NCBI RefSeq assembly: GCF_020921035.1
Contig: NC_063158.1
Coordinates: 27,018,962 to 27,082,961 of the forward strand
From: Rhodamnia argentea
Lineage: Eukaryota > Streptophyta > Magnoliopsida > Myrtales > Myrtaceae
Length of the DNA: 64,000 nucleotides
Direction of reading: 5' to 3'
The position numbers and the translations under genes are program-made. Below are positions 33,236 to 64,000 of the stretch, piece by piece. Numbering within the stretch: the first letter of the stretch is position 1; each line of letters begins with the position of its first letter. The notes below the pieces were generated by a model that saw only the letters and a list, made by a program, of their open reading frames with translations, did not search any database and was not told the DNA's origin.

Positions 33236-35349
33236 TCAGTCGTAAAGCTTTATCCTGGTAGTTATGAATGTGCGACAGATTGGACACGAGGTCAAGTCCG
33301 TTCCGCACTCATAGCAGGTCTGCAAAAGTGACACTGAGATGTAACGGATCCTGTAGAGACGTAACAGCAAATAAATCTGGTGTTCTTTTACCTGATGCCC
33401 GCATCCAAATGCAAGATCCTTCTTACTCCACAAGCACACGGGACAATTCTGGAAAAAGAAAACAAGAACCACCGAGGTTTACAAGTGATCGGAGACTTGT
33501 GTTAAAGATCAAGGAATGGGACATCACATGAAAGTACATCAAGCTAGCGAACATTCATTTCTGTATCGGTCACGACATTTACTTGAGTTGAGCTCTGCAT
33601 TTGAGGAAAAAAAGTCACCTTGTGAGAAGGACTTTCAGTAGGAGTAGAAGCGTAAGAGAAACCACTCCTGTGTTCGTTAGTGCTTGAGGGCATGCGCTTC
33701 GGGTAAGATTTTGCAGAACGGATCTGCTTTGGTGGAGGTAGAGGAAACCTTCCTGGAGTTCCTCTTCGACATCTGAAATTATAAGTACAAATCCTATGTT
33801 TATAAATTGCTAATTTAAACTACACTTTAAAGTGTATACTCAAGTGTTACCCAAGAAGTTGGAGATCGAGTGTAGCTTTGTATTGTGTTGGTATTTCCAT
33901 CAATGCCGCAAGGGCGAACTCTGTCTCCTTCTTGGATGTGGGCATGTACTTCAACATAATGTCGGTAAAATTTACAAACTACAAGACAGAAAAAGAGTTC
34001 GGTCACACCAAGTCGAAGTCTCATTATACAAGCAAGTTCTATAATCATTGTAGCTCAGTCTGTTAACCTGGAAGTTGTCAAAAGCTCGGTAAGGAATGTT
34101 GTCATCAAACTTGTGCATCATATCCCACGGTCCATCCCCGACTCCAACCAACACGATGGACAATGGATACTCGCTGAAAAAATGGAAATGTAGGTTCAGG
34201 ATTGTGATTTATGCAGTAGATGCATCAGATCTAGTAAAATGGATATCCAAACCTTGCTTTCACGATAGCATCTATTGTGTTCTGCTCTTGGGGGCTCAAA
34301 TGGCCATGACCCGTGTCAACGCTTCTTGTAACCTTGCAAATGAAGTTAAACCGAATAATTTATGCTGAGAAATTCCTCATATGGGAGAGACATAAAAAGA
34401 TTAGGGCTGCAGTTACTGCATAAACAAGAGCTCTTTATAAACTGACCTGTCCATCGGCGATGATCACAAGGACATGATACTGTCCACCACTGCTATCCAC
34501 TATTTCAATGGCAGTGTCAATTATCGGAGCAAATGATGTCGGTCCTGTTATTTTGGTAAACATAGGTACTTTGTCATTTCAATAGTTCCATAAACAAAAT
34601 CTGTAACATATTTGCTAATTGTTTAAAACTAACCAGACAAGTGTACATCCGGAACTAGATCTCTGTAACGGGAAAGAACTTCCTCAAAGCCCTCGCATGG
34701 TCTATTGTCGGCATAAAAGCTAAAGACTTCCTGATCATGCGTTGTAGCTGCAAAACCAATGGAATTCCAACCATCCAGTAATTAGCAACTCTTTCAGTTA
34801 GTGTTACCTCTAGTAACAACATCTGCAAGTACTGACCATCGCCAAAACCGAAACAAGGAATGAGATTGTCTTCATCGAAACTTGAGAGCGTCCTCCCAAT
34901 TATAGATATTGCCTGTTCATACGGATTAGGGGTATCCGCAAGGTGATGTAGGCTCTTGCGGTTGAATGATCGCGCACCTGTCCATTCATTGCTTTTTGTG
35001 AAATCGATACCCACAATAAGATTGGAAGACTCGAGGCCAGCTTGAGCAAGAGCATTTGTGACCTGCATTTCCGCATTTATTCAGTGAATTAAGCTTGAAA
35101 CTAGTGTTCTTTAATTTGCGAAATGTAAATAAGCTTGAAAGGTAGAACATAGAGTTGAGATACCTGTTCCAGCGAGCTGTAATCATCACCGATTTTGGAG
35201 TATTTTGACTGTACCTTGCCTTTTCTTTCATGATCATGGTAATTCTCAGAAAATGAAGAGCGATTGGATGAGCTTCGAAATGATCGGGAGTCATAACTGC
35301 GCGAATCATAGTAGTAGCCGCTGTTACTTCTCGATTCTTTATTCCCCAT
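33236..35349 (-). CDS. RGLG: RGLG-type copine-domain RING E3 ubiquitin ligase (complete copy)
   Basis: Ten coding exons: 35349-35164, 35062-34837, 34747-34634, 34544-34447, 34332-34253, 34173-34068, 33978-33851, 33772-33619, 33448-33392 and 33319-33236. They join in phase to 410 residues. The start MGNKES is a myristoylation signal, as in the plasma-membrane RGLG1/2 proteins; the GTG six bases upstream is not needed. A Ser/Tyr/Arg-rich linker precedes the copine-type VWA domain (about 55-315): [26 protein letters not shown] with the MIDAS residues, [32 protein letters not shown]. The C-terminal C3HC4 RING reads CPVC, FGCGH, CYEC, CPIC and ends RIKLYD. Family members attach K63-type chains and act in hormone and drought/ABA signalling. 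Paralogue number (RGLG1-5) is uncertain. Its first two exons and promoter are repeated twice downstream in truncated form. Confidence 0.92.
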
Positions 35350-35438
35350 ATTCACGTCCCGCCTTTCTCAGTTGCCAATAGCCTCGTTTTCACCGAAGAT
35401 TACAAGCCTCACACCACTAATCTGCTACCAGAAAGTGC

Positions 35439-36700
35439 TCTGTAACCAACAATACCATCATAATTGTAAGCATGTCAAGTACACAGAATTAAGTAAGTAG
35501 AACATTGTCGCAACATGTAATACTATGAACTCATTGGCTTGATAAAAAACCACAGACAAAACATATGCAGATCACTATCAAACAAGGCATTTCATTGTAC
35601 AGTTTCCTAACCACACCACTTTAAAAAATTATGGTGGATTGTGCATGACCTGAAGGGTATTCTACATAAGCTGCGAAATCGCTTTCATCCACTTCTACCA
35701 GTAGCACAGTGACTCGAGCAACATGCGAAAAACAGAGGAAACAAATGCTAAATGCAACCAGATTCTGTCACTATTTTCACTGAAAATTGCGATCCTTTCA
35801 CAGAAACACGTAGAGGATTCATGATTGGATTCCAGCTAATTCAGCAACAGATACAAACTGAGAGAGACAAACTAATACCAGAGATCATATCATAACTCTC
35901 TGGACATCATAGACAACACAAACAGATTTTGTTTACCTCCATGCCAGGTGAAAACAAAAAGCAAAGAAAGAAAAGGCTCTCACAATCACAAGGTCTCAGA
36001 ACAAATGCTCTGCAGGAAAGAAGAGGTTTTCATCCAGACTATATAGGGATGTAGGAGTGTTGGAACTCTCGATAAAATATAAAGTCAACGCCATCATCAA
36101 CAAAGAAAATTAAGGCAAAAACGAAGGGGTTGAAGCTTCAAAACTGATGCGGAGCGCCACTTGAGCTGATCAGTTCTTCACGGAAATTACGGTCGACAAC
36201 AACGCCCCACCTAAAAGCTGTGCTCATACTATTATTAAAAACCCATTTCTTGAGAAAAACTGGTGAAGGCACCCAATAAAAGTCAGAGGCTTGACTCTTG
36301 AAAAGCTCTGTACTTCACAAACAGCTTCCCTGCAAACTTCCCAGGAAACAACGAGATTGAGAAAAAAAATGCAAACCCTATTGGCAGACAATCATCAGAT
36401 GTTCTACTAGTTGACCAAAAGATTGACGGGAAGCAGGCAAAAAGAGAAATTGCGAAAACTAAATTCAATCCATAAATCAGAACATGGTGAGCCTTGATTG
36501 CATAAAACGATGAGGGGGAGTGAAAATCGAAAAATCCAACCTCAGTTCTCCAAGCATGCAGAGATCACCTCCCTCCCGCAGGTTGTTCCTCAGAGCTGCT
36601 GTTTCAAAATGAGGAAGACGAATTCAAAGCAGAGCCTTCTCTCTCGCTAGACAAGGCCAATGGAGTTCATTAGCGGTTTAATTTTTTTTTACTTTGTTTA
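35439..36700 (-). other. RGLG 5' leader with inferred intron, and core promoter
   Basis: An acceptor GGTTACAG lies at 35440-35447 before the start-codon exon. A candidate upstream donor (GAACTGAG|GTTGG) lies near 36540, and a CT/GA-rich first leader exon near 36600-36650. This suggests a leader intron of about 1.1 kb. The whole segment is repeated in units 2 and 3. Splicing is inferred. Confidence 0.45.
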
Positions 36701-36895
36701 AGATTATACACTACAAGTTTGCTTTGTTTCCTTCTGCATCTCTCTCACCCTTAATTATACGCAACAATCTTGACGTTAATCATATAAAAAGATGATTTTT
36801 TTTTTCAATCTAACAAAATCCCTTCTCAGTCGCCGAAAAAAAAGCGGAAAAACAAGACCAATTCCGAATCTTTCGATTCGCTTATGATATCTCGC

Positions 36896-36901
36896 CACGT
36901 G
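36896..36901. promoter_or_regulatory. G-box (CACGTG) upstream of RGLG, unit 1
   Basis: GCCACGTGGAAA, an extended G-box/ABRE-type site about 250 bp upstream of the inferred RGLG leader. It is kept in all three units (47885 and 58191) although the surrounding sequence varies. Confidence 0.5.
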
Positions 36902-37239
36902 GAAAATGTCATTCTTTGGGGTGTGTAATAGCGGACTTTTCCTTCATTTTTAATCGGGTCGTCGCTATGACGGTGGAGGCAGGACGTCACCGTACTCATC
37001 ATTTATTATCTTTGACAAACATGCTGCAAGAGAACTATCAAGGGAAGAAGAAAATTCTAGTTAAGAGGTTGCCGGAGTCTACGACACTATGCCTGATTCC
37101 AAGGTGCAACCGGGCAAGAAAGACAGGTCACGAGATCAATAATTTGGACAATATTCTTCTAGAATTAATAGCTTATATCGCCTACAAAAATACGTGCAAA
37201 AAAGAAATATTTTCATCGTTCATGAAAATATTTAGACAT

Positions 37240-37355
37240 AAATTATTGGTAGTAATTAATAAATTTTTATTGGCTAATTAGGTCAAACGATGCAAGTAAA
37301 TATTTTGAAGAAAATATTTTCTAAATTATTTATTTTTCGCGAAACAAATGGAGCC
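37240..37355. mobile_element. One-ended fragment of the AGGCTCC element family
   Basis: Ends CGAAACAAATGGAGCC at 37355, the same terminus as the element at 9078-10046, preceded by AAATATTTTCTAAATTATTTATTTTT. No opposite end is found upstream. The fragment is present in all units (ending near 48341 and 58641), so it predates the triplication. Confidence 0.5.
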
Positions 37356-37581
37356 TTAAAGTTTCAAAAGATAGGATTGCTAAGAACAATTAAAGATGCA
37401 TTACGTATGCCAAAGAAAAGGCAAAAACTACTGAATAGCCGGATAGTATGTTTCCGCACTACGTACACACTATGCTAAGGGTCGTTCACGCTCTATTGAT
37501 ATGCATAGAGAATGACTCTACCTGTACTAAAATCGATTTATGACATAACATTCACAAGCAAAAACTTGAAGCAGCAGAGTT

Positions 37582-38167
37582 TAGGGGTGAGCGGTCTCCG
37601 GTCCGGTCCGGTTCCCATCAAAAACCGGGAACCGGACCGGTGTTCCCTGTTCCCACTTTTCGGAACCGCGGACCGGACCGGCCAACCTTGGAACCGGGAA
37701 CCGGACCGGACCGTCGGTCCGGTCCGGTTCCTAGGCGGTTCCAAGAATTTCCGGTCCGCGGTTCCGAAAAATAGATGCACACTTTGTAGGCGGTGCCAAT
37801 GAAGTTTGAGAGGAGACAAACGGTAGGATGACTCAAAACTCGTCGTGTGTAACGAAATAAGTGGAGATTGGACAGTGGAAAGGTAAGAAAAAATGTTTGC
37901 GTCACTACATTAAAGTAAAGCAAAGAAATCCTAAAGGACCTAAACCTAAACAACAAGTAAACGTTAAGTTTATCTTTTAAAAAAAATTTCAAAAAGAGGA
38001 CCGGTCCGGTCCTAGGCCTTGGAACCGGGAACCGGACCGCCCGGTCACCGGTTCCAATTTTAGGAACCGGGAACCGGACCGGATCCCCCTAAAACCGGGA
38101 ACCGGACCATCGGTCCCGGTCCGGTCCGGGCGGTCCCGGTCCGGGCAGTCTTTTTTGCTCACCCCTA
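37582..38167. mobile_element. hAT-type MITE with 8-bp target duplication (unit 1 only)
   Basis: Termini TAGGGGTGAGC and GCTCACCCCTA are perfect inverted repeats, flanked by the direct repeat GCAGAGTT at 37574-37581 and 38168-38175. Eight-base duplications with TAGGG-type ends are the hallmark of hAT elements. Units 2 and 3 carry the uninterrupted site once (AGCAGCAGAGTTGTG near 48560 and 58865), which proves insertion. Both arms are dense in CCGGTCCGG and GGAACCGG phrases; the middle (about 37760-37985) is AT-rich. It has no transposase. Presence in one unit only dates it after the unit 1 copy separated, or means conversion removed it elsewhere. Confidence 0.9.
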
Positions 38168-39197
38168 GCAGAGTTGTGCATTGTGCATGGCCATACGTAA
38201 TTTTCATGCGAATCTATATCGTGTAGTCATTGGAAAATTTGAAAATTTACCATCGATGGTAGATTTCGGATTTCGATTAATTTGCACATGACAATCATTA
38301 CGATATGCGAATGGTCGACATGCTAGAGCATGTCATGTAGATTGCCGCCAAGAATTGTGGCCATTGTTGTTGTCTGAGAGAGTTACATAAATTCGCTACA
38401 AGGTTTTTAGTTTTAAATTGATGTTTGAACCTGAAAGATGTTATTGCAGATGTAGATCATCTCTTCCATTGCACGTATATCAAGTATCGTCAAGCAAATC
38501 TCTTCTTAGCTTGCGGATTGTAGGGAGATGCTGTGTTTTTCTTTTGTGGAATCAAGTGCAAATTGAGCAGAAAAGAGCATGTAAACATAAAAGGCCAAAG
38601 CTATTAAGGCGGCAATTTTCGTGGATCTGATGATGGAGCTGGTGTGTCAATAGGCTAGTTTCATATTATCCTCATTAACAACACCCAAAAGAAGATTGAC
38701 CCTTTAGTATTTTCCTTTCGGAAAACGATGCTAATAATTCATAAATTTTGGCGCAGCGTGTAACGTGATTTTGAACTTTTGATATGTTCAATACAATCTT
38801 TTAACTATTTCTAAATATTCAATCTAGTCCATCAACTTTCAATTTGTTCAATTTAGTTCATTCACTTTTCATAACACTCAAATCAGCCCTCCACTACTAT
38901 TCACAAGTTTTTCACTTTGTTGTTCATATGTGTGAATATATTTTCATCTCAACCTATTTCATAGATGAAAACAATTATGTATTCTTTTTACTACTTTATT
39001 ACCCTTTTTTTTTTTTTATCTTTATTAATATTGTGATAGTTCCATTTAAGCATATTTTAGCTTATGAACATAAAAGAAAAAGTAAAACCTTATTGAGAGT
39101 TATATTGAGCTAATATTCCTGCTATTTACAGGATCTAGTTGTTTTTATATGTGCTAGGGTATCTCATCTTTGATTGGAAGATACCATATGATATAGC
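38168..39197. other. Unit 1 spacer downstream of the MITE
   Basis: AT-rich sequence with close counterparts in units 2 (about 48560-49600) and 3 (about 58865-59890). No gene is seen. Confidence 0.5.
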
Positions 39198-39614
39198 CAC
39201 GAACAAGGGGAGACAAAACACGACTATCACCGAGGAGTAACAAAATGACCTTGGGAAAATTCCTGCGGCCGGGTTGGATTGCAGGTAATCGATCGCAAGG
39301 GGAAAAAATGTGGGCAAGGCTGAGAAATGATAGAGAGAAGTGAACCATCAAAGTGTCGGGAATTAGTGAAAGAGCGGTGACCCAGATTGTGCCGATGGAG
39401 GCGTAAAAAAGTGGTGTTGTTGAGGACGGTGAACCCGAATAGCTCCCAATTATTGAGGATCATGTTTCCGGCTTAACGAGGCCTCCCAATGGCAATGCTG
39501 CTAGAATTATTGGCGGTAACTACGGTTGAATTCGTCGGGAGATTTGCAGAGGAGTCCCGCCAATATTCTCTCGGAGGATTGAGGGTGGCTTGGTAAGTGG
39601 CGGTCGCGATTAAG
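39198..39614 (-). pseudogene. Relic of a PGG-domain exon, unit 1
   Basis: Homologous on the minus strand to ankyrin-gene exon 2 (compare CACTTACCAAGCCACCCTCA here with the QAALTPPGG coding stretch near 41070-41095). The region still corresponds to AATYQA-TLNPPREYWRDS-type sequence but has several frame breaks and no exon 1 nearby. It is an older duplicate than the tandem units, since all three contain it. Confidence 0.7.
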
Positions 39615-40310
39615 TGACCCCTCTCCAAATCCTTCTTTGAGACTTAGTTAACCACTTCGGGTTCTTATTTGATATAATGTCCATTTTGGGTTCTCTTTTG
39701 AGAAAGCAACTCCTCTTCGGTTCCTTATTTGAAATTTACCCTAAAACAGATGAAGTACAACAGTATAGGGGCATCCCTAGCATTACAAAAGGAGCTAATA
39801 ATGCGAAAAGATGGAGATAGAAAGCCTCCATATAGTAGCCAATACAACATTCGTTTGGGAAGGTACGAATTTTTGATAGAGGAAACTTGATGTCTTACAT
39901 TTTTACGCACTTTAGCATCATCGCTATTTAAAGAATCAATTGATAGATCGATCTTGAAGTTTGGTGGGGATCTTTTCTTAAGCAAGAAATTGATTGATTT
40001 TAGAGATATGGTTCCAAATTCCAAGAGGATTTTAAAACATATGCTTTATCAAATAACCCGACATTCTAAAATCAAAAACTCGAGGTCGAGTTGTTGTTTT
40101 TTTTTTTTTTCCAATGATGTGAGAACGATGTGGGGCACCTCAAGCTTGGATTTACATCTTTCATTTGATAAAGATAGGCTTTTGAAGTTCGATATTTTCT
40201 TATTTAATAAAATTTAGAGCATTCAATTGGTATAGAATATTTGAATTTTCTGTTTCTATTGTTTTAACATTTTAAATGCGTTAAGATATCTTGTCTTTCT
40301 CAGTATTTCT
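39615..40310. other. Spacer segment shared by units 1 and 3
   Basis: Begins GTGACCCC(T/T)CTCCAA directly after the PGG relic, has phrases TTCGGGTTCTTATTTGA and TTTGGGTTCTCTTTTGAG, and matches 60308-61010. Unit 2 has different sequence here (50031-50530). No gene is seen. Confidence 0.55.
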
Positions 40311-40571
40311 ACTTTTGATTTGTAAATTTTTGGAAAAGGGTTGCAGCTGTGCTTAGTTGTTGTGTTTTGTCAGATCACTCAGTTTGCGTCTTTGCAGAAA
40401 TCCAGGAAATCAAGAGATTCCACATTTCGCGTTTTGGGGCGCACGCACTTCTGGCGTCCGTCTTTGCGAGTTGCAGCTCGGTGCTTTTCGTTTTCACAAG
40501 CTGGATTAAGAAAAAGCTGTTCGGAAAGCACCGAATTCAAGCATGATTAAAGGTCTCCGGTGACCAAGGAA

Positions 40572-42969
40572 TTAATATATCGTGACAAGAATTATGAAAA
40601 TAAGTAATGCTAGCCAAGTACGTTGAGTCATTCGATCGTCGAAAGTTGCGACGCATCCCCTTGTGGCATCGATTCGTCGCCGAACTCTTGTGTACGCTAC
40701 CCTCCAGAGCACGGGGACACAAAACACGGCGATCAAACAGAACCCAGCAAGTACACGTAGGTAAATTGCTACCACCTCAGGGTGTTGCGGAGTTTGGACA
40801 ATAAGAGAAACAGAGTAAGCAAGGCAGAGAAGGGGTATAGGGATGTGAAACAGAGGGTTGGCCTCCGCAGTGAAAGTGGTGGCCCAGATTGTGGCGATGG
40901 AGGCGAAAAAGGTCAGGCTATTGAGCATCGCGTACTCATAGAGTCCCGAACCTCTCCGGATACTATCTCTGGCTCCATGTGTTTTTCCGGTAGCCATGCT
41001 GCTGGAATTGGCGGTAACGAAGGTGGAATTTGCTGTGGGATTTGAAGGGGAATCCTGCAAGTATCCTCCTGGAGGAGTGAGAGCAGCTTGGTAAGTGGCA
41101 GCCGCGATTAAGGAAGACACTATGAGGATTATGTTGCGAGCGGATTCATCTGGGATTCTGAAAAAATTTGCGCACTTCTCAAAGTAAGTTAGTTCCTTGC
41201 TAAAAAACTGTGATAGAGAGAGGGTAGGAGTAATTGCCCGACGTCCTAGACGGCGTGACCTATTCGCTAGATCTTGATCGCCGCTAGGATTCTCTTGGAA
41301 GATGTCCAGAGCGGTCTTGCCCTGGAAGTTCTTCGCTTTTACAGCTGTGTACCCAATCAACCGCTTGATGATCTGGAAAAAAAATTGCAAAGGAAAAGAA
41401 ATTAAAGTACACGGTTCCCTTCAATTTCGATCACTGCTTTGTCACAAGCTTTACTATCGTACACAAAATGAGCTCATGGCCATATGTCTATTGGAGTTTG
41501 ATGATGCTAGTGTAGTGATGCAACGGCCGATGTACAGAGGGAAGAGGTTTATTTAACCTTACTTATTGAATACAATCATTCTACCCGATTTAATGAAGTC
41601 CCGAGTCAATTTCAAAAAGTGCAATTTAGTCCTTTCACTTGAAATGGTTTAGATGATAGCTGAGAAATGATCATGCGAGTAGTAAATAACATAAGCCAAT
41701 CCACCGAAGTGATGACCGAAATGACCATAACTTTTTATAAAAAAGTTGAAGACTTAATCACATTAACTAAAAGATTTAGGATTTGATTACATTTTGTATT
41801 TACGGTGTTTTACTTGAAGAGAAAGTCTACCTTTAGACAGGTGTATATATATACTCTATGCATAGTATTCAACTGATCATGGAGCAATTCTCCCTTCAAC
41901 AAACTGATTATTTTATGGCTTTTGTCGGATTGTCCTTTGTTAGCATCCATTTGACTAGCTTCTATCTCGTACAGTATGTTCGGATGGACTGATATCGAAA
42001 GAAGGAAAGAGATTCTGCTAATCAATAGGCAAAAATGAAAGAAAAGAAAAGAATAAACTAAGCTATTGTTGCGTTCTGTGGAAGCGATTGTGATGTCAAG
42101 AGTCGAAAAGAAATTATTTATCCAAAATAATCCAACATAGAAAGATTTAGAGCTCACTAAAAACTGAGTTTTATAGGAATTCTAAGGGAAACAATTTTGA
42201 TCATAACTTTTTTCTCAACTTAGAACAGGGTGGATCTCTCTACAGCACTACTTTTCTTTCCTTCCTTTTTCTCTGTATCCTCCAACCAAAACGTTGTTCT
42301 TGGATAAGATTGTCTTGAATCGAAGGATCCAAAAACAAAAGTGCGAATAACTGAAAAATCGATGAACTATACCTCGGGTTGCCTTTCGGCTGCAGCAATG
42401 TGTAGGACGGTGTCACCGTTTTGGTCTTTCCAGTCCAAGATTCGCGTCAGATGGACTCGCTTAAGCCATCCAAACAAAACCTTGAATGCTTCGCTGTTGC
42501 CCGTCCTAACGGCGACATGAACCGCAGTCTCGCATTGGTTCGTCAAGTCTTCAATGGACGATTTGCAAGCAGATAGAAACTCGGCCAGGAGTTCCAAGAG
42601 CTCCACGTTGTCCCACCCATTGTCTCCTCTTTCCCCGGCTACAAAATGCAAAGGGGTGATCCCGCCTCTTCCTCGGACTCGAACCAATTCAGGGTTGAGG
42701 GTCATCAGTGCCCTCACAGTGCGATAATGCTTCTTTTGCAAAGCCAAGTGTATGGGGCTATAACCCCCTCGATTCAGCTTCCGAGCGAATGGCGGCTTCA
42801 AGGTGGCTATCTCCGTGGCCACTTTAGTTTTCCCCTGCCCTGCGGCAACGTGTAGTGGAGTATTTGGGAAGGGTCCCTCGGATCCATGATCTAAGATGTT
42901 TTCGTCCTGCTCAATTAAGCTGTAGAGCTCATTGACACTATCAGCTGCTATTGCTTCTTGAAGGCTCAT
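40572..42969 (-). CDS. BDA1/ACD6-like ankyrin-PGG membrane protein, copy 1 (open)
   Basis: Two exons, 42969-42373 and 41372-40572, joined in phase 0 to 465 residues. It resembles Arabidopsis BDA1 (At5g54610), a plasma-membrane immune signalling protein, along its length. MSLQEAIAADSVNELYSLIE matches the BDA1 start. About five ankyrin repeats follow (TPLHVAAGQGK, SPIHLALQKKHY, RGRGGITPLHFVAGE, TAVHVAVRTGNSEAF, DTVLHIAAAE), the last spanning the splice site. Exon 2 carries the PGG domain: RNIILIVSSLIAAATYQAAL then TPPGGY, and four membrane segments including SLTFFASIATIWATTF and LLIFIILVTIY. An in-frame ATG at 43089 would add 40 residues (MNNDC...). This is the only one of three copies without a premature stop. 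Confidence 0.88.
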
Positions 42970-43089
42970 TGTTTTGAGGAGGGAGATGTAGGAGAAGGGG
43001 GGCTTCGGCTCGTTGATGATGGATGGAAGCAGGAGTGGCGGACATGCGAAGTCATAAACAGGGCCATAGCCAACGCAGTCATTGTTCAT

Positions 43090-43665
43090 GATTCAATCGG
43101 TCGGGGGATTTTTCTCTTTAGAGAACTTACATGCGAAGTTCCGTAATTAATTGTGGTCTGAATTTTCCCTCTCTCTTTTTTTTTTTTAATTAATTGTTGG
43201 GTGCCATTTCTCCGCCACTACTTTGCGAGTTGTGGGGAGTACTGAGTAGTAGCGGAGGGTGTCCCACCCACCCGGCTCGCAAAGATGGTATCTGCTCGAT
43301 ACTGTTGGAACCAAAACAATAATTGTGACTTTGGAAATTTAAAACAAGGAAACAAATACAAATCGGAGAGAGAAATTCTTCATTGGAATGCAAAATACTC
43401 GTACTACGTACTACAACTCGAAGCTCACTTGGAGTTCTATGGCTTGATTACAGTGCTGAACAATCGCCCATACCTTCTTACAATCATAAAGCAACAAAAA
43501 GTCCACACAATTATTGCTCTTGAACCATCCCTAGCCTTCACACAATAAAAGTAAAAAAAAGGCCAAAACACTATCCAAGACATCAGAAAACATGCTTATC
43601 TTTCCATGAAAAATGCAATGGCTCTTGGGGACCTTTTTGTTCATGCATTTGTTCATTCAGCATCC
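43090..43665. other. Upstream region of ankyrin copy 1
   Basis: Promoter-proximal sequence with a T-run near 43170-43190 and TGTGGGGAGTACTGAGTAG. It is nearly the same in units 2 and 3. No separate feature is seen. Confidence 0.45.
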
Positions 43666-45650: not shown

Positions 45651-46336
45651 GTAGCTGCAAAACCAATGGAATTCCAACCATCCAGTAATTAGCGACTCTT
45701 TCAGTTAGTGTTACCTCTAGTAACAACATCCGCAAGTACTGACCATCGCCAAAACCGAAACAAGGAATGAGATTGTCTTCATCGAAACTTGAGAGCGTCC
45801 TCCCAATTATAGATATTGCCTGTTCATACGGATTAGGGGTATGCCCAAGGTGATGTAGGCTCTTGCGGTTGAATGATCGCGCACCTGTCCATTCATTGCT
45901 TTTTGTGAAATCGATACCCACAATAAGATTGGAAGACTCGAGGCCAGCTTGAGCAAGAGCATTTGTGACCTGCAGTTCCACATTTATTCAGTGAATTAAG
46001 CTTGAACCTAGTGCTTTATATTTTTGGAATAGCTCAGACTACAAATGCAAAGTATTTCCGCATTTATTCAATGAATTAAGCCTGAAACTAGTGTTCTTTA
46101 ATTTTCAAAATGTAAATAAGCTTGAAAGGTAGAACATAGAGTTGAGATACCTGTTCCAGCGAGCTGTAATCATCACCGATTTTGGAGTATTTTGACTGTA
46201 CCACGCCTTTTCTTTCATGATCATGGTAATTCTCAGAAAATGAAGAGCGATCGGATGAGCTTCGAAATGATCGGGAGTCATAACTGCGCGAATCATAGTA
46301 GTAGCCGCTGTTACTTCTCGATTCTTTATTCCCCAT
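45651..46336 (-). pseudogene. Truncated RGLG copy B (exons 1-2 only)
   Basis: Coding exons 46336-46151 and 45969-45744 correspond to RGLG exons 1 and 2 with both frames open, the MGNKES myristoylation start and splice sites kept. Protein differences from the complete copy are few (for example HLGHTPNP for HLADTPNP). Homology stops four bases into exon 3; the rest of the VWA domain and the RING are absent. The intron between the exons has an 80-bp local duplication (repeat of CATTTATTCA-TGAATTAAGC) that the complete gene lacks. Spliced to the vestigial exon 3 it would run into LTR-like sequence. The leader and G-box promoter are present to about 47900, so it may be transcribed. Confidence 0.85.
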
Positions 46337-49600: not shown

Positions 49601-50030
49601 GCCACAAACAAGGGGAGACAAAACACGACGACGACAGAGGAGTAACAAAATGACCCTAGGAAAATTCCTGCGGCCGGGCTGGATTGTGGGTAATCGATTG
49701 CAAGGGAAAAAAAATGTAGGCAAGGCTGAAAAATGATATAGAGAAGTGAACCATCAAATTGTCGGGAATTAGTTTAAGAGCGGTGACCCAGATTGTACTG
49801 ATGGAGGCATAAAAGAGGTGGTGCTGTTGAGGACGATGAATCCGAATAGCTCCCAACCGTCCAGGATCATGTTTCCGGCTTGATGAGGTCTCCCAACAGC
49901 AATGCTTCAGGAATTATTGGCGGTAAGGACAGTTGAATTGGCTGGGAGATTTGACGAAAAGTCCTGCCAATATCCTCTCGGAGGACTGAGGGTGGCTTTG
50001 TAAGTGGCGGTCGCGATTAAGGTAGACACT
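49601..50030 (-). pseudogene. Relic of a PGG-domain exon, unit 2
   Basis: Counterpart of 39198-39614. Its homology to the live exon 2 extends about ten bases further (GATTAAGGTAGACACT), so the units differ in where the relic is cut. It is broken in several places. Confidence 0.65.
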
Positions 50031-50530: not shown

Positions 50531-50868
50531 GTTACATTCTCAGTGTTTCTACTTTTGAGTTGTGTTTTTCAGGAAAAAGGGTTGCAACTGTGCATATTTG
50601 TTGTATTTTATCAGATCACTCAGTTTGCGACAATACAGAAAATCAAGAGATTCCACTCTTTGTTCGCATTTTGGGCGTATAAACTTCTAGCGTTAGTCTT
50701 TGCGAGTTGCGACTCGGAAAGCTTTTCGTTTTCAGTGCTTCATTTTGTAAAGCTGGAATTAAGAAAAAGGCTATTCGAAAGTTTCGAATTCAAGCATGAT
50801 TATAAGGTCTTTGGTGACCAAGGAATTAATGTAGCAGTTCATTACATGAAGAGCGTTTCTTGCAAACC

Positions 50869-53275: not shown

Positions 53276-53963
53276 TGTTTGAGGAGGGAAATGTAGGAGA
53301 AGAGGGGCCTTGGCTCGTTGATGATGGATGGAAGCAGGAGCGGCGGACACGCGAAGTCATAAATAGGGCCATAGTCAACGGAGTCATTGTTAATCATTCA
53401 ATCGGTCGGGGGATTTTTCTCTTTAGAGAACTTACATGCGAAGTTCCGTAATTGATTGTGGTCTGAATTTTCCCTCTTTTTTTTTAATTAATTGTTGGGT
53501 GCCATTTCTCAGCCACTACTTGCGAGTTGTGGGGAGTACTGAGTAGCAGCGGAGGGTGTCCCACCCACCCGGCTCGCAAAGATGGTATCTGCTCAAAACT
53601 GTTGGAACCAAAACAATAATTGTGACTTTGGAAATTTAAAACAAGGAAACAAATACAAATCGGAGAGAGAAATTCTTCATTGGAATGCAAAATACTCGTA
53701 CTACGTACTACAACTCGAAGCTCACTTGGAGTTCTATGGCTTGATTACAGTGCTGAACAATCGCCCATATCTTCTTACATTCATAAAGCAACAAAAAAAT
53801 CCACACAATTATTGCTCTTGAACCATCCGTAGCCTTCACACAATAAAAGTTAAAAAAAGGCCAAAACACTATTCAAGCCATCAGAAAACATGCGTATCTT
53901 CCCATGAAAAATTCAATGGCTCTTGGGGACCTTTTTGTTCATGCATTAGTTCATTCAGTATCC

Positions 53964-55957
53964 CGTTGACACCTAAATTTTGATTAATCTTTTTCAGTAA
54001 TTTCTGCATAAAAAATTAGAACTGATTTTAGTTCTAAATAAAAATAACAAAATCATCTTTTATATTTATTTTTAGCATCCATTGCATTACATTTTGCATT
54101 TAATTGGATCGGTAGTGGATGGACTTATTTTGAGATTTTGGGCTTAATTGAATCAATTGCATTATTTGGATTGAGCCCACAAAAGCATCAAATTCGGGCA
54201 AAGTTCATAACTATCAATAGGGAGCCGAAAATTGGTAATAAAAGTGCTAAGTAGGAAAATTGATTTATTAAAAGAAAACTTGGGCAATAATTTGGTAATT
54301 TGTAATCCTAAATCTGTCTCTATAAATAAGCATGTCTAGGGTTCACAAAATGGAGGCCACACAATTGTCATACACGGCTAGAGAGAATTCTGACGGCCAC
54401 AATACAGGTTCACGGCCATAGAAAAAGACAGGAGGTGGAGAAAGCGTGAAAAAGGTGAGAGAGACGGAGAAGACTGAGGCTTTCTTTTTGACCACGGCTT
54501 CACCAATAGGGTCAAGAACTTTGAACAACCATCCACGAAGATCCAGGCGTCTAGGTAATTTCCAATGAAGGTTTCTTGGCAAGTCCCTGCAAAAAGTCTA
54601 GCAATCTCAATGAAAGTACTTACACGGTGCTCCCGAAGACACCGTAATCAGTGGACAAATTCCAGACAAGATCCTTGCCTTCGGATATTCACCATCGTTA
54701 TCTTATGAAACACTACGGATTCATGCCTCTACTTTGAATTCTTTATTGTTTTCTCATGTTTACCCACTAATCATGAAGAAAACTTGTAGGGAGAAAAGGA
54801 GCGCACATAGGAATACATGACAGAAAATTCACATTAAAAAAAAGAGCTTTCAAAAGAGAAGAGAAAAGTTTCTTTCTTTTCTTTGCAGGTAAAACCAAAA
54901 TCCTAAGCGGCGGCCAAGATAGCTTCTGATAGAAATTTGATTTGAATTGAGGAATGTTCAACGAAGACTTGGAGAAGATTCCACCTTGGGGATGGAGAGA
55001 CATTCACTTACATAAGTCGAGGTATTTACGTGTTGAACGACTCAAGTCTCAGACATCAAAAGGGAAGTTTTTTCTCTAACAATCTGTTTGACTCCATTAG
55101 ATTTTTATTGTTATTAAGTTCTATCAATTCCAGAACCAGAAAGCTTCCCACTTTCTTTTTGTTGCAGGTTCTCATTCGGTCTCACCCAGTTGTGGACGTG
55201 TCGTCTTCAAGTAAAACCCATCAGAGATGTTCAAGTCCTTGTTGCATCGATACTTTATTTTCATGTAGGTTTGCTTTCGTTCATTGGGAGCAAAGACGAC
55301 ATCTTCATCATGCCCAAGCGTTTGTCATCTACTTGATTGTTTATTTAATTCTCGGTGGAGTCCTCTGACTTGCGACCACATTCAAGGAGTCCACTAGTTA
55401 TTGGCTTGGCTCTGGTTTAAGTTATTAAATCTACAGGTGTTGTTGTACTTGCCAAAGTGTCCCATCGAAAGTCCCTCCGCCGTGATCATCCGTGTGCATG
55501 TGAGCTCTGCCGGTCCAATCCGTAAGCGATCTCAAGCAATTCGATCCAATTCGAATTGGAAAAGATATCTGCAAGATAGGTAAAATTATGATTTTAAATA
55601 TTTTTATTGCCTATCTTGAATATATTTGCATATCTTATGTTTGCATATTTGAGCATATCTTGTATCTTGCATCAAAGTGGATATCTTTTAAAATACAGGT
55701 TGATTAGGAAATTTTCCTAATCCGCAACTTACCAAACAATCGAGAATTAGGATTATTGATGGAATACTCGATTAGGCAAGGATTTGAGTTCAATCGTTAA
55801 TCGTAAGATTACGAATTAAAAAGTGGATTCAAATATTTAGGAAATCTTTTCAAAAATTGATTGATATATCCACTTTCTTGATTGATATAGATTGGCATAT
55901 TTACTTTCTTTATTTTGCTTGATTGTCATATTTTTTAAAATATATCCGTCGCATGAT
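53964..55957. mobile_element. Fossil LTR-like block, unit 2 end
   Basis: Duplicate of 43666-45650. From 54673 onward it appears identical to the unit 1 block; before that it differs by scattered changes. No retroelement coding region is present. Confidence 0.4.
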
Positions 55958-56643
55958 GTAGCTGCAAAACCAATGGAATTCCAACCATCCAGTAATTAGC
56001 GACTCTTTCAGTTAGTGTTACCTCTAGTAACAACATCCGCAAGTACTGACCATCGCCAAAACCGAAACAAGGAATGAGATTGTCTTCATCGAAACTTGAG
56101 AGCGTCCTCCCAATTATAGATATTGCCTGTTCATACGGATTAGGGGTATGCCCAAGGTGATGTAGGCTCTTGCGGTTGAATGATCGCGCACCTGTCCATT
56201 CATTGCTTTTTGTGAAATCGATACCCACAATAAGATTGGAAGACTCGAGGCCAGCTTGAGCAAGAGCATTTGTGACCTGCAGTTCCACATTTATTCAGTG
56301 AATTAAGCTTGAACCTAGTGCTTTATATTTTTGGAATAGCTCAGACTACAAATGCAAAGTATTTCCGCATTTATTCAATGAATTAAGCCTGAAACTAGTG
56401 TTCTTTAATTTTCAAAATGTAAATAAGCTTGAAAGGTAGAACATAGAGTTGAGATACCTGTTCCAGCGAGCTGTAATCATCACCGATTTTGGAGTATTTT
56501 GACTGTACCACGCCTTTTCTTTCATGATCATGGTAATTCTCAGAAAATGAAGAGCGATCGGATGAGCTTCGAAATGATCGGGAGTCATAACTGCGCGAAT
56601 CATAGTAGTAGCCGCTGTTACTTCTCGATTCTTTATTCCCCAT
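55958..56643 (-). pseudogene. Truncated RGLG copy C (exons 1-2 only)
   Basis: Exons 56643-56458 and 56276-56051, with the same predicted residues as copy B, including the 80-bp duplication in the intron. I saw no base differing from copy B between 55958 and 57707. Like copy B it stops four bases into exon 3 and lacks the RING, while its leader and promoter continue to about 58200. Confidence 0.85.
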
Positions 56644-58190
56644 ATTCACGTCCCGCCTTTCTCAGTTGCCAATAGCCTCGTTTTCAACGAAGATTACAAG
56701 CCTCACACCACTAATCTGCTACCAGAAAGTGCTCTGTAACCAACAATACCATCATAATTGTAAGCATGTCAAGTACACAGAATTAAGTAAATAGAACATT
56801 GTCGCAACATGTAATACTATGAACTCATTGGCTTGATAAAAAACCACAGACAACACATATGAACTCATTGGCTTGATAAAAAACCAGACAAAACATATGC
56901 AGATCACTATCAAACAAGGCATTTCATTGTACAGTTTCCTAACCACACCACTTTCAAAAATTACGGTGGATTGTGGATGACTTGAAGGGTACTCTACATA
57001 AGCTGCGAAATCGCTTTCATCCACTTCTACCAGTAGCACAGTGACTCAAGCAACATGTGAAAAACAGAGGAAACAAATGCTAAATGCAACCAAATTCTGT
57101 CACTCTTTTCCCTGAAAATGCGATCCTTTCACAGAAACACGCAGAGGATTCATGATCCAGCTAATTCAGCAACAGATACAATCTACTAGAGACAAACTAA
57201 AACCAGAGATCATATCATAACTCTCTGGACATCATAGACAGGTGAAAACGAAAAGCAAAGAAAGAAAAGGCTATCACAATCACAAAGTCTCAGAACAAAT
57301 GCGCTGCAGGAAAGAAGCGGTTTTCATCCAGACTATATAGGGATGTAGGAGCGTTTGAACTCTCGATAAAATATAAAGTCAACGCCATCATCAACAAAGA
57401 AAATTAAGGCAAAAGCGAAGGGGTTGAAGCTTCAAAACTGATGCGGAGCGCCACTTGAGCTGATCAGTTCTTCACGGAAATTACGGTCGACAACAACGCC
57501 CCACCTAAAAGCTGTGCTCATACTATTATTAAAAACCCATTTCTTGAGAAAAACTGGTGAAGGCACCCAATAAAAGTCAGAGACTTGACTCTTGAAAAGC
57601 TCTGTACTTCACAAACAGCTTCCCTGTAAACTTCCCAGGAAACAACGAGATTGAGCAAAAAAACTGCTAACCCTCTTGGCAGACAATCATTAGATGTTCT
57701 ACTAGTTAACCAAAGAGCGACGGGAAGCAGGCAAAAAGAGAAATTTCGAAAACTAAATTCAATCCATAAATCAGAACATGGTGAGCCTTGATTGCATAAA
57801 ACGATGAGGGGGAATGAAAATCGAAAAATCCAACCTCAGTTCTCCAAGCATGCAGAGATCACCTCCCTCCCGCAGGTTGTTCCTCAGAGCTGCTGTTTCA
57901 AAATGAGGAGGACGAATTAAAAGCAGAGCCTTCTCTCTCACTAGACAAGGCCAATGGAGTTCATTAGCGGTTTAATTTTTTTTCTACTTTGTTTAAGATT
58001 GTACACTACAAGTTTGCTTTGCTTCCTTCTGCAACTCTCTCACCCTTAATTATACGCAACAATCTTGACGTTAATCATATAAGAACATGATTTTTTTTTT
58101 CAATCTAACAAAATCCCTTCTCAGTCGCCAAAAAATAAGCGGAAAAACAAGACCAGTTTCGTATCTTTCGATTCGCTTATGATATCTCGC

Positions 58191-58196
58191 CACGTG
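58191..58196. promoter_or_regulatory. G-box upstream of truncated RGLG copy C
   Basis: CACGTG in the GCCACGTGGAAAATG context shared by all three units. Confidence 0.45.
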
Positions 58197-59891
58197 GAAA
58201 ATGTCATTCTTTGGGTGCGTAATAGTGGACTTTTCCTTCATTTTTAGTCTGGTCGTCGCTGTGACGGTGGAGGCAGGACGTCACCGTACTCATCATTTAT
58301 TATCTTTGACAAACATGCTGCAAGAGAAATAACAAGGGAAGAAGAAAATTCTAGTCAAGAGGTTGCCGGAGTCTGTGACACTATGCCTGATTCCAAGATG
58401 CAACCGGGCAAGAAAGACAGGTCACGAGATCAATAATTTGGACAACATTCTTCTAGAATTAATCGCTTATATCGCTTACGAAAATACGTGCAAAAAAGAA
58501 ATATTTTCATTGTTCATGAAAATATTTAGATAGAAATTGTTGGCAGTAATTAACAAATTTTTATTGGCTAATTAGGTCAAACGATGCAAGTAAATATTTT
58601 GAGGAAATATTTTCTAGATTATTTATTTTTTGTGAAATAAATGGAATTTTAAAGTTACAAAAGATAGGATTGCTAAGAACAATGAAAGGTGCATTCTGTA
58701 TGCCAAAGAAAAGCCAAAAACTACTGAATAGCCGGATAGTATATTTCCGCACCACGTACACACTATGCTGAGGGTCGTTCACGCTCTAGTGATATGCATA
58801 GAAAATGACTTTACCTATACTAACATCGGTTGATGACATAACATTCACAAGCAAAAACTGGAAGCAGCAGAGTTGTGCATTGTGCATGGCCATACGTAAT
58901 TTTCATGCCAATCTATATGGTGTAGTCATTGGAAAATTTGAAAATTTACCATCGTTGGTGGATTTCGGATTTCGATTAATTTGCACATGACGATCATTAC
59001 GATACGCGAATGGTCGACATGCTAGAGCATGTCATGTAGATTGCTGCCAAGAATTGTGGCCATTGTTGCTGTCTGAGAGAGTTACATAAATTCGCTGCAA
59101 GGTTTTCAGTTTTAAATTGATGTTTGAACTTGAAAGATGTTATTGCAGATGTAGATCATCTCTTCCATTACACGTATATCAAGTATCGTCAAGCAAATCT
59201 CTTCTTAGCTTGCGGATTGTAGGGAGATGCTGTGTTTTTCTTTTGTGGAATCAAGAGCAAATTGAGCAGAAAAGAGCATGTAAACATAAAAGGCCAAAGC
59301 TATTAAGGCGGCGATTTTCGTGGATCTGATGATGGAGCTGGTGTGTCAACAGACTAGTTTCATATTATCCTCATTAACAACACCCAAAAGAAGATTGACC
59401 CTTTAGTATTTTCCTTTCGGAAAACGATGCTAATAATCCATAAATTTTGGCGCAGCGTGATTTTGAACTTTTGATATGTTCAATACAATCTTTTAACTAT
59501 TTCTAAATATTCAATCTAGTCCATCAACTTTCAATTTGTTCAATTTAGTTCATCAACTTTTCATAACAAACTCAAATCAACCCTCCACTACTATTCACAA
59601 GTTTTACACTTTATTGTTCATATGTGTGAATATATTTTCATCTCAACCTATTTCATAGATGAAAACAATTATGTATTCTTTTTACTACTTTATTACCCCC
59701 TTTTTTTTTTTTTATCTTTATTAATATTGCGATAGTTCCATTTAAGCATATTTTAGCGTATGAACGTAAAAGAAAAAGTAAAACCTTATTGAGCGTTATA
59801 TTGAGCTAATATTCCTGCTATTTACAGGATCTAGTTGTTTTTATATGTGCTAGGGTATCTCATCTTTGATTGGAAGATACCATATGATATA

Positions 59892-60307
59892 GCCACGAAC
59901 GAGGGGAGACAAAACACGACTATCACCGAGGAGTAACAAAAAGACCTTAAGAAAATTCCTGCGGCCGGGTTGTATTGCGGGTAATCGATCGCAAGGGAAA
60001 AAAATGTAGGCAAGGCTGAGAAATGATATAGAGAAGTGAACCATCAAAGTGTCGGGAATTAGTGAAAGAGCGGTGACCCAGTTGTGCCGATGGAGGCGTA
60101 AAAAGTGGTGCTGTTGAGGACGGTGAACCCGAATAGCTCCCAACTATTCAGGATCATGTTTCCGGCTTAATGAGGCCTCCCAATGGCAATGCTGCCGGAA
60201 TTATTGGCGGTAACTATAGTTGAATTTGCCGGGAGATTTGCGGAGGAGTCCCGCCAATATTCTCTCGGAGGACCGAGGGTGGCTTGGTAAGTGGCAGTCG
60301 TGATTAA
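59892..60307 (-). pseudogene. Relic of a PGG-domain exon, unit 3
   Basis: Counterpart of 39198-39614, closest to the unit 1 relic, and followed by the same GTGACCCC segment. It is broken in several places. Confidence 0.65.
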
Positions 60308-61010
60308 GTGACCCCTTTCCAAGTCCTTCTTTAAGATTTAGTTAACTACTTCGGGTTCTTATTTGAGATAATATACATTTTGGGTTCTCTTTTGAGAAAG
60401 CAATTCCTCTTTGGCTCCTTGTTTGAAATTTATCTTAAAATAGATGAAGTACAACAATGTAGAGGCATCCCTAGCATTACAAAAGGAGCTAATAATTCGA
60501 AAAGATGGAGATAGGAAGCCTTCATATAGTAGCCAATACAACAGGAAGGTACGAATTTTTGATAGAGGAAACTCAATCTCTTACATTTTTACGCATTTTA
60601 GCATCATGGCTATTTAAAGAATCAATTGATAGATCGATCTTGAAGTTTGGTGGGGATCTTTTCTTAAAGCAAGCAATTGATTGATTTTAGAGATATGGTT
60701 CCAAATTCCAAGAGGATTTTAAAACATATGCTTTATCAAATAACCCGACATTCTTAAATCAAAAACTGGAGGCTGAGTTTTTTTTCCAATGATGTGAGAA
60801 CGATGTGGGGGCACCTCAAGTTTGGATTTACATCTTTCATTTTGATGAAGATAGGATTTTGAATCTCGATATTTTTTATTTTATAAAATTTAGGGCATTC
60901 ATTTGGTATAGAACATTTGAATTTTCTGTTTCTATTGTTTTAACATTTTAAATGCGTTAAGATATCTTGTCTTTGATTGGGTGATATAATAAGATCCAGT
61001 AGTTCTTTTA
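60308..61010. other. Spacer segment shared with unit 1
   Basis: Matches 39615-40310 with small indels. Near its right end it also has AGTTCTTTTACGTTTA, which units 2 and 3 share but unit 1 lacks, so the ancestral spacer was longer than any present copy. Confidence 0.5.
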
Positions 61011-61282
61011 CGTTTATCTAGGATTGCAACTGTGCTTAGTTGTTGTGTTTTGTCAGATCACTCAGTTTGCGTCTTTTGCAGAAATACAAGAAATCGAGAG
61101 ATTCCACTCTTCGCGATTTGGTGCGTACGCACTTCTGGCGTCCGTCTTTGCGAGTTACCGCTCAGTGCTTTTCGTTTTCACAAGCTGGATTAGGAAAAAG
61201 GCTATTCGGAAAGCATCGAATTCAAGCATGATTACGGGCATTCGGTGACCAAGGAATTAATACAGCAGTCCATTACATGCAA

Positions 61283-62556
61283 CTAAAAATAAACTAGCGT
61301 GACAAGAATTATGAAAATAAGTAATGCTTGCCAAGTATGTTGAATCTTTCGGTCGTCGAAAGTTGCGACGCCTCCCCTTGTGGCATCGATTCGACGCCGA
61401 ACTCTTGTGTACGCTACCCTCCAGAGCACGGGGACACCAAACACGGCGATCAAACAGAACACAGCAAGTACAAGTAGGTAAATTGCTACCACCTCACGGT
61501 CTTGCGGAGTTTGGACAATAAGAGAAACAGAGTAAGCAAGGCAGAGCAGGGGTATAGGGATGTGAAACAGAGGGTTGGCCTCTACAGTAAAAGTGGTAGC
61601 CCAGATTGTGGCGATGGAGGCGAAAAAGGCCAGGCTATTGAGCATTGCGTACTCATAGAGTCCCGAACGTCTCCGGATACTATCTCTGGCTCCATGTGTT
61701 TTTCCGGTAGCCACGCTGCTGGAATTGGCGGTAACAACGGTGGAATTTGCTGTGGGATTTGAAGAGGAATCCTGCAAGTATCCTCCTGGAGGAGTGAGAG
61801 CAGCTTGGTAAGTGGCAGCCGCGATTAAGGAAGACACTAAGAGGATTATGTTGCGAGCGGATTCATCTGGGATTCTGAAAAAATTTGCGCACTTCTCAAA
61901 GGAAGTTAGTTCCTTGCTAAAAAACTGTGATAGAGAGAGGGTAGGAGTAATTGCCCGACGTCCTAGACGGCGTGACCTATTCGCTAGATCTTGGTCGCCG
62001 CTAGGATTCTCTTGGAAGATGTCCAGAGCCGTCTTACCCCGGAAGTTCTTCGCTTTTACAGCCGTGTACCCAATCAACAGCTTCATGATCTGGAAAAAAA
62101 ATTGCGGAGGAAAAGAAATTAAAGTACACGGTTCCCGTCAATTTCAATCACTGCTTTGTCACAAGCTTTACTATCGTACACAAAATGAGCTCATGGCCAT
62201 ATGTCTATTGGAGTTCGATGATGCTAGTGTAGTGATGCAACGGCCGCTGTACAATGGGAATAAGTTTATTTAACCTTACTTATTAAATACAATCATTCCG
62301 CCCAATGTAATGAAATCCCGAGTCTATTTTAAAAAGTGAGATTTAGTCCTTTTACTAGAAATGGTCGAGGTGATACCTAGTAAGTGATCATGCGAGTAGT
62401 AAATAACATTGGCCAATCCACTGAAGTGATGGCCGAAATGACCAAAAGTTTTTATAAAAATTTTAGGACTTAATCACTTCAACTAAAATGTTTAGGATTT
62501 AATTACATTTTGTACCTTAGGTCTTTTGCTATGAAGAGAAAGACTACCTAAGACAG

Positions 62557-62588
<32 letters not shown>

Positions 62589-63650
62589 CCTCTATGCATG
62601 GTGTTCAACTGATTCGGGAGCAATTCTCCCTTCCACAACGTGATTATTTTATGGTTTTTGTCGGATTGTCCTTTGTTAGCATCCGTTTGACTAGCTTATA
62701 TCTCGTACGATATGTTCGGATGGACTGATATCGAAAGAAGGAAAGAGATTTTGCTAATCAAAAGGAAAAATGAAAGAAACGAAAAGAATCATTAAGTTAT
62801 TGTTGTGTTCTGTAGAAGTGATGGTGATGTAAAGAGTCGAAAGCTGAGTTTGTAGGAGTTCCGAGGGAAACAATTTTGATCATAACTTTTTTTCTCAACT
62901 TAGAACAGGGTGGATCTCTCTATAACATTCCTTTTCTTTCCTTCCTTTTTCTCTGTATCCTCCAACCAAAACATTGTTCCTAGATAAGATTATGCTTGAA
63001 TTGAAGGATCCCAAAACAAAAGCGCGAATAACCATGAAACCGATGAAGTATACCTCGGGCTGCTTTTCTGATGCAGCAATATGTAAGACGGTGTCACCAT
63101 GTTGGTCTTTTCAGTCCAAGATTCGCGTCAGATGGACTCGCTTAAGCCATCCAAACAAAACCTTGAATGCTTCGCTATTGCCCGTCCCGACGGCGACATG
63201 AACCGCAGTCTCGCATTGGTTCGTCAAATCTTCAATGGACAATTTGCAAGCAGATAGGAATTCAGCCAGGAGTTCTAGGAGCTCCACGTTGTCCCACCCA
63301 TTGTCTCCTCTTTCCCCGGCTACAAAATGCAAAGGGGTGATCCCGCCTCTTCCTCGGACTCGAACCAATTCAGGGTCGAGGGTCATCGGTGCCCTCACGG
63401 TGCGATAATGCTTCTTTTGCAAAGCCAAGTGCATGGGGCTGTAACCCCCTCGATTCAGCTTCCGAGCGAACTGCGGCTTCAAGGTGGCTATCTCCATGGC
63501 CACTTTAGTTTTCCCTTGCTCCGCAGCAACGTGTAGTGGAGTATTTGGGAAGGGGCCCTGGGATCCATGATCTAAGATGTTTTCGTCCTGCTCAATTGAG
63601 CTGTAGAGCTCATTAACACTATCAGCTGCTATTGCTTCTTGAAGGCTCAT
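61283..63650 (-). pseudogene. Ankyrin-PGG copy 3, nonsense codon late in exon 1
   Basis: Exons 63650-63054 and 62089-61283 with intact splice sites. Codon 180 is TGA (63113-63111) where copies 1 and 2 have TGG (Trp in ILDWKDQNG), so translation would stop before the membrane domain and leave a soluble ankyrin fragment of 179 residues (219 if the upstream in-frame ATG at about 63764 is used). Exon 2 is open and very like copy 1 (YLQDSSSNPTANSTVV, YEYAMLNSLAFFASIATIW). The intron is the most diverged of the three and contains an expanded GT/AT microsatellite. Confidence 0.85.
62557..62588. repeat. GT/AT microsatellite in ankyrin copy 3 intron
   Basis: (GT)7 followed by (AT)9. Copies 1 and 2 have only GTGTATATATATAC here. 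Confidence 0.9.
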
Positions 63651-64000
63651 TGTTTTGAGGAGGGAAATGTAGAGGGGCTTTGGCTCGTTGATGATGGATG
63701 GAAGCAGGAGTGGCGGACATGCGAAGTCATAAGTAGGGCCATAGTCGACGCAGTCATTGTTCATGATTCAATCGGTCGGGGAATTTTTCTCTTTAGAGAA
63801 CTTACATGCGAAGTTTCGTAACTAATTGTGGTCTGAATTTTCCCTCTTTTTTTTTTTAAAAATTAATTGTTGGGTGCCATTTCTCAGCCACTACTTGCAT
63901 GTTGTGGGGAGTACTGAGTAGCAGCGGAGGGTGTCCCCACCCACCCGGCTCCCAAAGATGGTATCTGCTCAAAACTGTCGGAACCAAAACAATAATTGTG
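63651..64000. other. Upstream region of ankyrin copy 3
   Basis: Matches the upstream regions of copies 1 and 2, including TGTGGGGAGTACTGAGTAG. The window ends here. Confidence 0.5.

Follow-up and report, generated by a model that had tools for sequence, protein, structure and literature searches.

Genes encoding ankyrin repeats and a transmembrane region (ankyrin-TM genes) expand by tandem duplication in Triticeae, including the wheat Lr14a region (PMC9353636), and ACD6 of Arabidopsis varies in both copy number and sequence (PMC6168153). In the portions of these two reports considered here, immune roles are on record for some members of the family (PMC9353636, PMC6168153). The subject of this analysis is a 64,000-nucleotide stretch of the Rhodamnia argentea genome (contig NC_063158.1, positions 27,018,962 to 27,082,961; hereafter the window), in which a segment of about 10 kb carrying an ankyrin-PGG gene and the 5′ part of a neighboring RGLG-type RING E3 ubiquitin ligase gene recurs head to tail. 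The locus shares with the ankyrin-TM clusters of the Lr14a region and ACD6, as far as the cited portions describe them, the combination of ankyrin repeats with a hydrophobic tail and the tandem mode of expansion. In contrast to those clusters, the added units here bring along a 5′ piece of the neighboring ligase gene, and two of the three ankyrin copies are broken.

Three further systems, likewise taken from the relevant portions of the cited reports, offer parallels for the ligase part of the unit. Tandem duplications in Drosophila yakuba create chimeric gene structures (PMC5460883). A tandem duplication likewise yields a chimeric structure in R. argentea, although expression was measured in D. 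yakuba and is predicted here, and the junction itself is repeated at the present locus. In Arabis alpina, PEP1 comprises a full-length gene and an upstream tandem partial copy with part of the promoter and the first exon, such that both first exons, 6.3 kb apart, splice to one exon 2 (PMC3527215). A partial tandem copy upstream of a full-length gene is also found here; unlike in PEP1, exon sharing is a prediction, the distance would be ~11 kb for the second unit, and an ankyrin gene lies between. The MSH2-AT3G18530-AT3G18535 segment of Arabidopsis has become multi-copy via recombination between 99%-identical flanking sequences (PMC5101643). It too is a multi-gene tandem change in copy number, but the stretches compared at the present locus revealed no repeat of this kind that could account for the first join.

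A preliminary description of the window, made from its letters, presented the repeated unit as a “cassette”. That term is not supported, as nothing indicates that the two genes stay together as a functional pair; the ligase piece simply adjoined the breakpoint, and the ankyrin gene is broken in two of three units. Partial and chimeric genes made by tandem duplication have already been described in the portions of the reports cited (PMC5460883, PMC3527215). The co-duplication of a ligase piece with an ankyrin gene, claimed in the same description, is borne out by the array and its gene content. No report of a tandem pairing of an RGLG fragment with an ankyrin gene was found in the open-access literature searched, partly by title. 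The combination may be unreported, with each of its elements being of a known kind. The array probably originated as a tandem segmental duplication whose breakpoint fell by chance in the RGLG gene, and which was later expanded and partly homogenized.

Array Layout and Unit Borders

The sequence GTAGCTGCAAAACC occurs exactly three times in the whole 64,000-nucleotide window, with starts at 34744, 45651, and 55958, in agreement with the preliminary description; none of 100 shuffles of the window yielded three matches to it. The self dot-plot proposed there as a check corresponds to a self-comparison of the window, in which three units follow one another head to tail, their left edges lying at 34743, 45650, and 55957. 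The start previously assigned to the array (34744) was thus right to within one base, the exact left edge being 34743. Start-to-start spacing at the left edge is 10,907 and then 10,307, and collinear homology joins each site to the next, as had been proposed.

34743..45649, no strand assigned, unit 1: 10,907 bp, including a 586-bp insertion; from the self-comparison
45650..55956, no strand assigned, unit 2: 10,307 bp, mosaic, with a unit 3-like left part, a divergent center, and a unit 1-like right part
55957..64000, no strand assigned, unit 3: 8,044 bp inside the window, the remainder lying beyond the window end

Head-to-tail collinear copies that share a common edge identify the array as a tandem segmental duplication. 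Its description as a three-unit array stands for the three left edges and two full units, while unit 3 is present in part (8,044 bases). The letters of the window contain no N, and a similarity search of the window located no further copies of the unit elsewhere in it.

The RGLG Gene and Its Partial Copies

The left edge of the duplicated segment falls inside an intact ligase gene. Exons of the predicted chimeric genes at the two junctions are listed with it below.

33236..35349, minus strand, intact RGLG-type RING E3 ligase gene: 10 coding exons, 422 amino acids, GT/AG splicing
34743, no strand assigned, left edge of the duplicated segment, 5 nucleotides inside RGLG coding exon 3 (34634-34747)
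45530..46336, minus strand, predicted chimeric RGLG gene at the unit 2/unit 1 junction: exons 46151-46336, 45744-45969, and 45530-45654; 178 amino acids, without a RING
55837..56643, minus strand, predicted chimeric RGLG gene at the unit 3/unit 2 junction: exons 56458-56643, 56051-56276, and 55837-55961; identical protein

The intact protein matches the Pfam profiles Copine (expectation value, E, 5e-73) and zf-C3HC4_3 (the RING, E 5e-8), and its best PDB matches are chains of RGLG2, RGLG1, and RGLG5 (RGLG2 8hmg, E 1.5e-148; RGLG5 8xt5, E 2.5e-137). The gene at 33236-35349 therefore has the Copine/vWA domain followed by a C-terminal C3HC4 RING that characterizes an RGLG-type ligase, and the identity first assigned to it is confirmed by these domains and by the RGLG chains at the top of the PDB matches.

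Unit 1 adjoins the complete gene, and fragments are confined to units 2 and 3. Each fragment comprises RGLG exons 1 and 2 along with the splice sites of both, the acceptor of exon 3, 5 nucleotides of exon 3, and the 5′ region. Because the edge lies 5 nucleotides inside coding exon 3, units 2 and 3 carry just 2 of the 10 coding exons plus those 5 nucleotides (about a third), rather than the 5′ half of the gene that had been ascribed to every unit; in unit 1, the segment lies beside the whole gene. The fragments lack the full Copine/vWA domain and RING of an RGLG-type protein, and their native share of the Copine profile amounts to 41/218 positions.

Past the exon 3 acceptor, the frame enters the right end of the preceding unit, where it remains open for 117 nucleotides before a stop. 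Splicing on paper joins RGLG exons 1 and 2 to 120 bases of new sequence, with a predicted product of 178 amino acids that consists of 139 RGLG residues and 39 new ones and has no RING. In a profile search, the Copine match of this chimera (profile positions 1-77) extends into the new tail. The chimeras are the same in both units, with 0 base differences over 1,807 bp (the chimera and 1 kb upstream). Relative to the intact gene, the RGLG exons of units 2 and 3 differ at 5 of 412 bases, affecting four codons, and all four changes alter the amino acid; the fragments thus show no sign of constraint, albeit on small numbers. Beyond the chimera stop, AATAAT occurs at 79 nucleotides and AATAAA at 228 nucleotides. 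The same motif test on the intact gene returns a single AATAAT, at 452 nucleotides, such that polyadenylation-like motifs near the chimera stop say little. The RGLG fragments are most likely passive passengers of the duplication.

In the partial copies, RGLG intron 1 (45970-46150 and 56277-56457) exceeds that of unit 1 (35063-35163) by 80 bp, and by eye the extra sequence appears to be a local duplication.

Ankyrin-PGG Copies

Each unit carries an ankyrin-PGG copy on the same strand as the ligase gene, as well as the remains of a second one.

40572..43089, minus strand, unit 1 ankyrin-PGG gene: open, two exons; exon 1 at 42373-42969 (inner ATG) or extending to 43089 (outer ATG), exon 2 at 40572-41372
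50869..53275, minus strand, unit 2 ankyrin-PGG copy, from the inner ATG, the outer ATG being lost; TAG at 53141-53143
61283..63764, minus strand, unit 3 ankyrin-PGG copy; TGA at 63111-63113
39301..39613, minus strand, degenerate second PGG relic of unit 1, with counterparts at 49602-50029 and 59882-60307; located by tblastn with the unit 1 ankyrin protein

The unit 1 frame encodes 505 amino acids when started at the outer ATG and 465 when started at the inner one. Its product matches Ank_2 (4.8e-20) and PGG (1.7e-8) in Pfam, and a simple window test listed five hydrophobic segments in it, two of which overlap, leaving four that are distinct. Unit 1 therefore unites ankyrin repeats and a PGG/transmembrane part in one open frame, and the earlier identification of a membrane-type ankyrin-PGG gene agrees with the two profile matches and the hydrophobic segments. 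The BDA1/ACD6-like immune character also proposed for it is putative. Exon 1 is interrupted by a nonsense codon in both of the other copies, in unit 2 by a change of CAG to TAG at codon 45 and in unit 3 by a change of TGG to TGA at codon 180 (both counted from the inner ATG). A single open frame is thus found in one copy of three, at variance with the proposal that every unit holds a whole ankyrin gene.

The ratio of nonsynonymous to synonymous change (dN/dS) in exon 1 is 0.36 for units 1 and 2, 0.18 for units 1 and 3, and 0.17 for units 2 and 3. Synonymous change per site exceeds nonsynonymous change in each pair (Fisher p 0.02, 1e-6, and 6e-6, respectively). In the later part of exon 2, which encodes the PGG half (40578-41132 in unit 1), the corresponding ratios are 1.49, 0.83, and 1.15, none of them significant (p 0.18, 0.65, and 0.69). 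Positive selection on the PGG half was considered for units 1 and 2 on account of the value of 1.49 and was rejected, the excess not being significant (p 0.18). Judged from the coding sequences, the pattern fits copies that would have worked for a while and been broken afterwards. The constraint signal in exon 1 may also represent older divergence shifted between units by conversion.

The second PGG relics, which lie downstream of the ankyrin-PGG copies, contain stops in all three units and a change of frame in units 1 and 2. The presence of a degenerate relic in every unit shows an earlier duplication of the ankyrin genes.

Mosaic Structure and Probable Exchange between Units

The relationship among the three units changes along their length. 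At the left end, no base separates unit 2 from unit 3 for 1.75 kb, and unit 1 departs from both by ~1-6%. Unit 2 is the one that stands apart in the center (37.1-41.2 kb in unit 1), with 38-92% identity to the other two, which agree with each other at 83-98%, for the most part above 90%. From ~41.2 to 42.6 kb, it is units 1 and 2 that are 96-99% alike, with unit 3 at 85-96%. Beyond ~42.65 kb on the unit 1 scale, as far as unit 3 extends, there is no clear odd unit, the last three-way bin having 10, 9, and 11 sites. The odd-one-out labels are clustered along the alignment (316/956 switches versus 552 ± 13 in 2,000 shuffles, with a minimum of 506).

44366..47400, no strand assigned, exact 3,035-bp block, copy 1, crossing the unit 1/unit 2 junction
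54673..57707, no strand assigned, exact 3,035-bp block, copy 2, crossing the unit 2/unit 3 junction and identical to 44366-47400
50031..50488, no strand assigned, part of unit 2 for which BLAST gave no segment of at least 80 bp in units 1 or 3; 38-63% identity in the three surrounding 250-column windows

In the windows that flank the exact block, the same units are ~1-12% different. An unequal crossover between adjacent units predicts a middle unit that resembles its right neighbor at the left and its left neighbor at the right, and part of the alignment bears this out. To explain the divergent center and the unevenness of the divergence, later conversion is required on top of crossover. Taken together, the mosaics and the exact junction block point to unequal exchange or conversion, and the center of unit 2, including 50031-50488, may come from another unit beyond the window.

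A 40-bp unit with about two repeats is present at 46511-46592 and 56818-56899, both of which sit within the exact junction block; it was reported for units 2 and 3 and not for unit 1.

Proposed Origin of the Array

The array would have started with a tandem segmental duplication of ~10.3 kb. Its edges, whose positions are observed, lie 5 bases into RGLG coding exon 3 on the left and ~2.5 kb upstream of the same-strand ankyrin-PGG gene on the right, and they would be the original break points. No notable repeat was found when the left flank (2 kb) or the left edge (1.5 kb) was compared with the right edge of unit 1 (1.5 kb), the best of the 15 matches listed covering 15 of 16 bases at E 0.11. 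This suggests that the first duplication was probably not begun by long repeats, with the native right flank situated beyond the window, and that the first join probably formed without long homology. Misalignment of the units would then have allowed unequal exchange or gene conversion, adding unit 3 and producing the mosaics. In this scheme the original RGLG gene would remain intact at the array edge, and each new junction would leave a 5′ RGLG fragment with its RING-less 178-amino-acid frame. The ankyrin half of the copies would have been under purifying selection for a time, followed by the nonsense codons in units 2 and 3. The locus would accordingly comprise one intact ligase gene and a birth-and-death cluster of ankyrin-PGG genes, seemingly caught mid-growth, for which the probable order of events is the PGG relic, the 10-kb duplication, exchange between units, and the nonsense codons. 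For the most part the locus illustrates a known process well, and it warns against annotating such copies as whole genes.

Several observations weigh against this origin. The right end of the array and the native right flank lie beyond the window end, and the analysis covers the window of one genome. The lack of a clear odd unit past ~42.65 kb departs from the prediction of a single crossover, and conversion must be added to account for it. Both chimeric copies share one identical open frame, as would also be expected of a functional gene. Lastly, the exact junction block could stem from assembly instead of recombination. In such a case, each haplotype would carry two units, and the assembler would have joined the haplotypes via the identical junction block, making “unit 2” a splice between the left part of one haplotype's last unit and the right part of the other's first unit. 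The likeness of unit 2 to unit 3 at the left and to unit 1 at the right, as well as the exactness of the 3,035-bp block, would follow directly. The central outlier status of unit 2 (38-92%, versus 83-98% between units 1 and 3) is unexpected for an allele, however, and in 57 of the 78 tested 100-column windows no two of the three sequences are the same, which renders an assembly splice unlikely. A diploid locus supplies two sequences and three are seen; therefore, at least two units would be present in any event, unless the plant is polyploid.

Other explanations assign the fragments or the unit a more active part. The duplicated RGLG 5′ region might yield a RING-less 178-amino-acid product, or its RNA, that interferes with the intact ligase in a dominant-negative manner or by silencing. 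The duplication indeed covers the 5′ region together with the start codon and splice sites, the frame is open across the junction, the N-terminus of the chimera (MGNKES) presumably fits a myristoylation motif, and the AATAAT and AATAAA motifs 79 and 228 nucleotides past the stop add weak evidence. Interference is nevertheless very improbable: native Copine positions number just 41 of 218, the fragments bear no sign of constraint, and their expression is a prediction from sequence in which the polyadenylation-like motifs weigh little. The VIM4-VIM2 silencing case depends, in the cited portion of its report, on an inverted repeat (PMC13213937), whereas the window has no inverted repeat of at least 200 bases. 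We attach similarly little credence to the array as an alternative-promoter device, in which transcripts begun in the RGLG fragment of unit 2 or 3 would skip the ankyrin gene and join their exons 1 and 2 to the intact exon 3, or ankyrin exon 1 would join RGLG exon 2. Phase permits both splices, being 0 at the end of either first exon (ankyrin or RGLG) and 1 at the end of RGLG exon 2; exon lengths are equal across the three units, and the orientation also permits exon sharing. If such splicing did occur, the copy number of an immune-type gene would be coupled to the supply of ligase isoforms, and joining of ankyrin exon 1 to RGLG exon 2 would give an ankyrin-guided RING ligase. Should the fragments be expressed at all, the locus would offer a natural test of passenger exons at duplication edges gaining a role. 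Capture of the ligase piece and the ankyrin gene by a transposon (Helitron, Pack-MULE, or similar) that then spread would explain why a gene fragment and another gene occur together in a repeated unit. The copies are strictly head to tail, no additional ones exist within the window, the unit edges have no terminal or inverted repeats of note, and the sequence at the left edge is the intact RGLG gene's own. A transposon origin is hardly conceivable on these grounds and was rejected for the last two.

Other Elements and Neighboring Genes

No structured RNA in the whole window matched Rfam at the gathering score, and a search with bacterial-code settings gave no tRNA in the window. Two open reading frames in the right part of the unit, 44639-45061 (plus strand) and 43970-44290 (minus strand), were the only ones tested there for a further gene, and neither had a Pfam match at E 0.001. 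To the left of the array, Pfam matches mark five other genes.

1653-2369, glycosyl transferase family 8
18863-19522, DnaJ
20905-21225, Ras-family GTPase
26369-27232, phosphofructokinase
31500-32612, glycosyl hydrolase 17 with X8

A long open reading frame at 13664-15757 is presumed to encode a pentatricopeptide repeat (PPR) protein. The 586-bp insertion of unit 1 (37582-38167) is found in that unit only; its inverted ends measure 11 bp (TAGGGGTGAGC), and 8 bp of the target (GCAGAGTT) are duplicated, with matching empty sites in units 2 and 3. We take it to resemble a hAT-type miniature inverted-repeat transposable element. Repeat units of ~30/60 bp with GTGACACATTTACCCC-type motifs occur at 16279-16667 and 29783-29914, and the two tracts are partly alike in inverted orientation.

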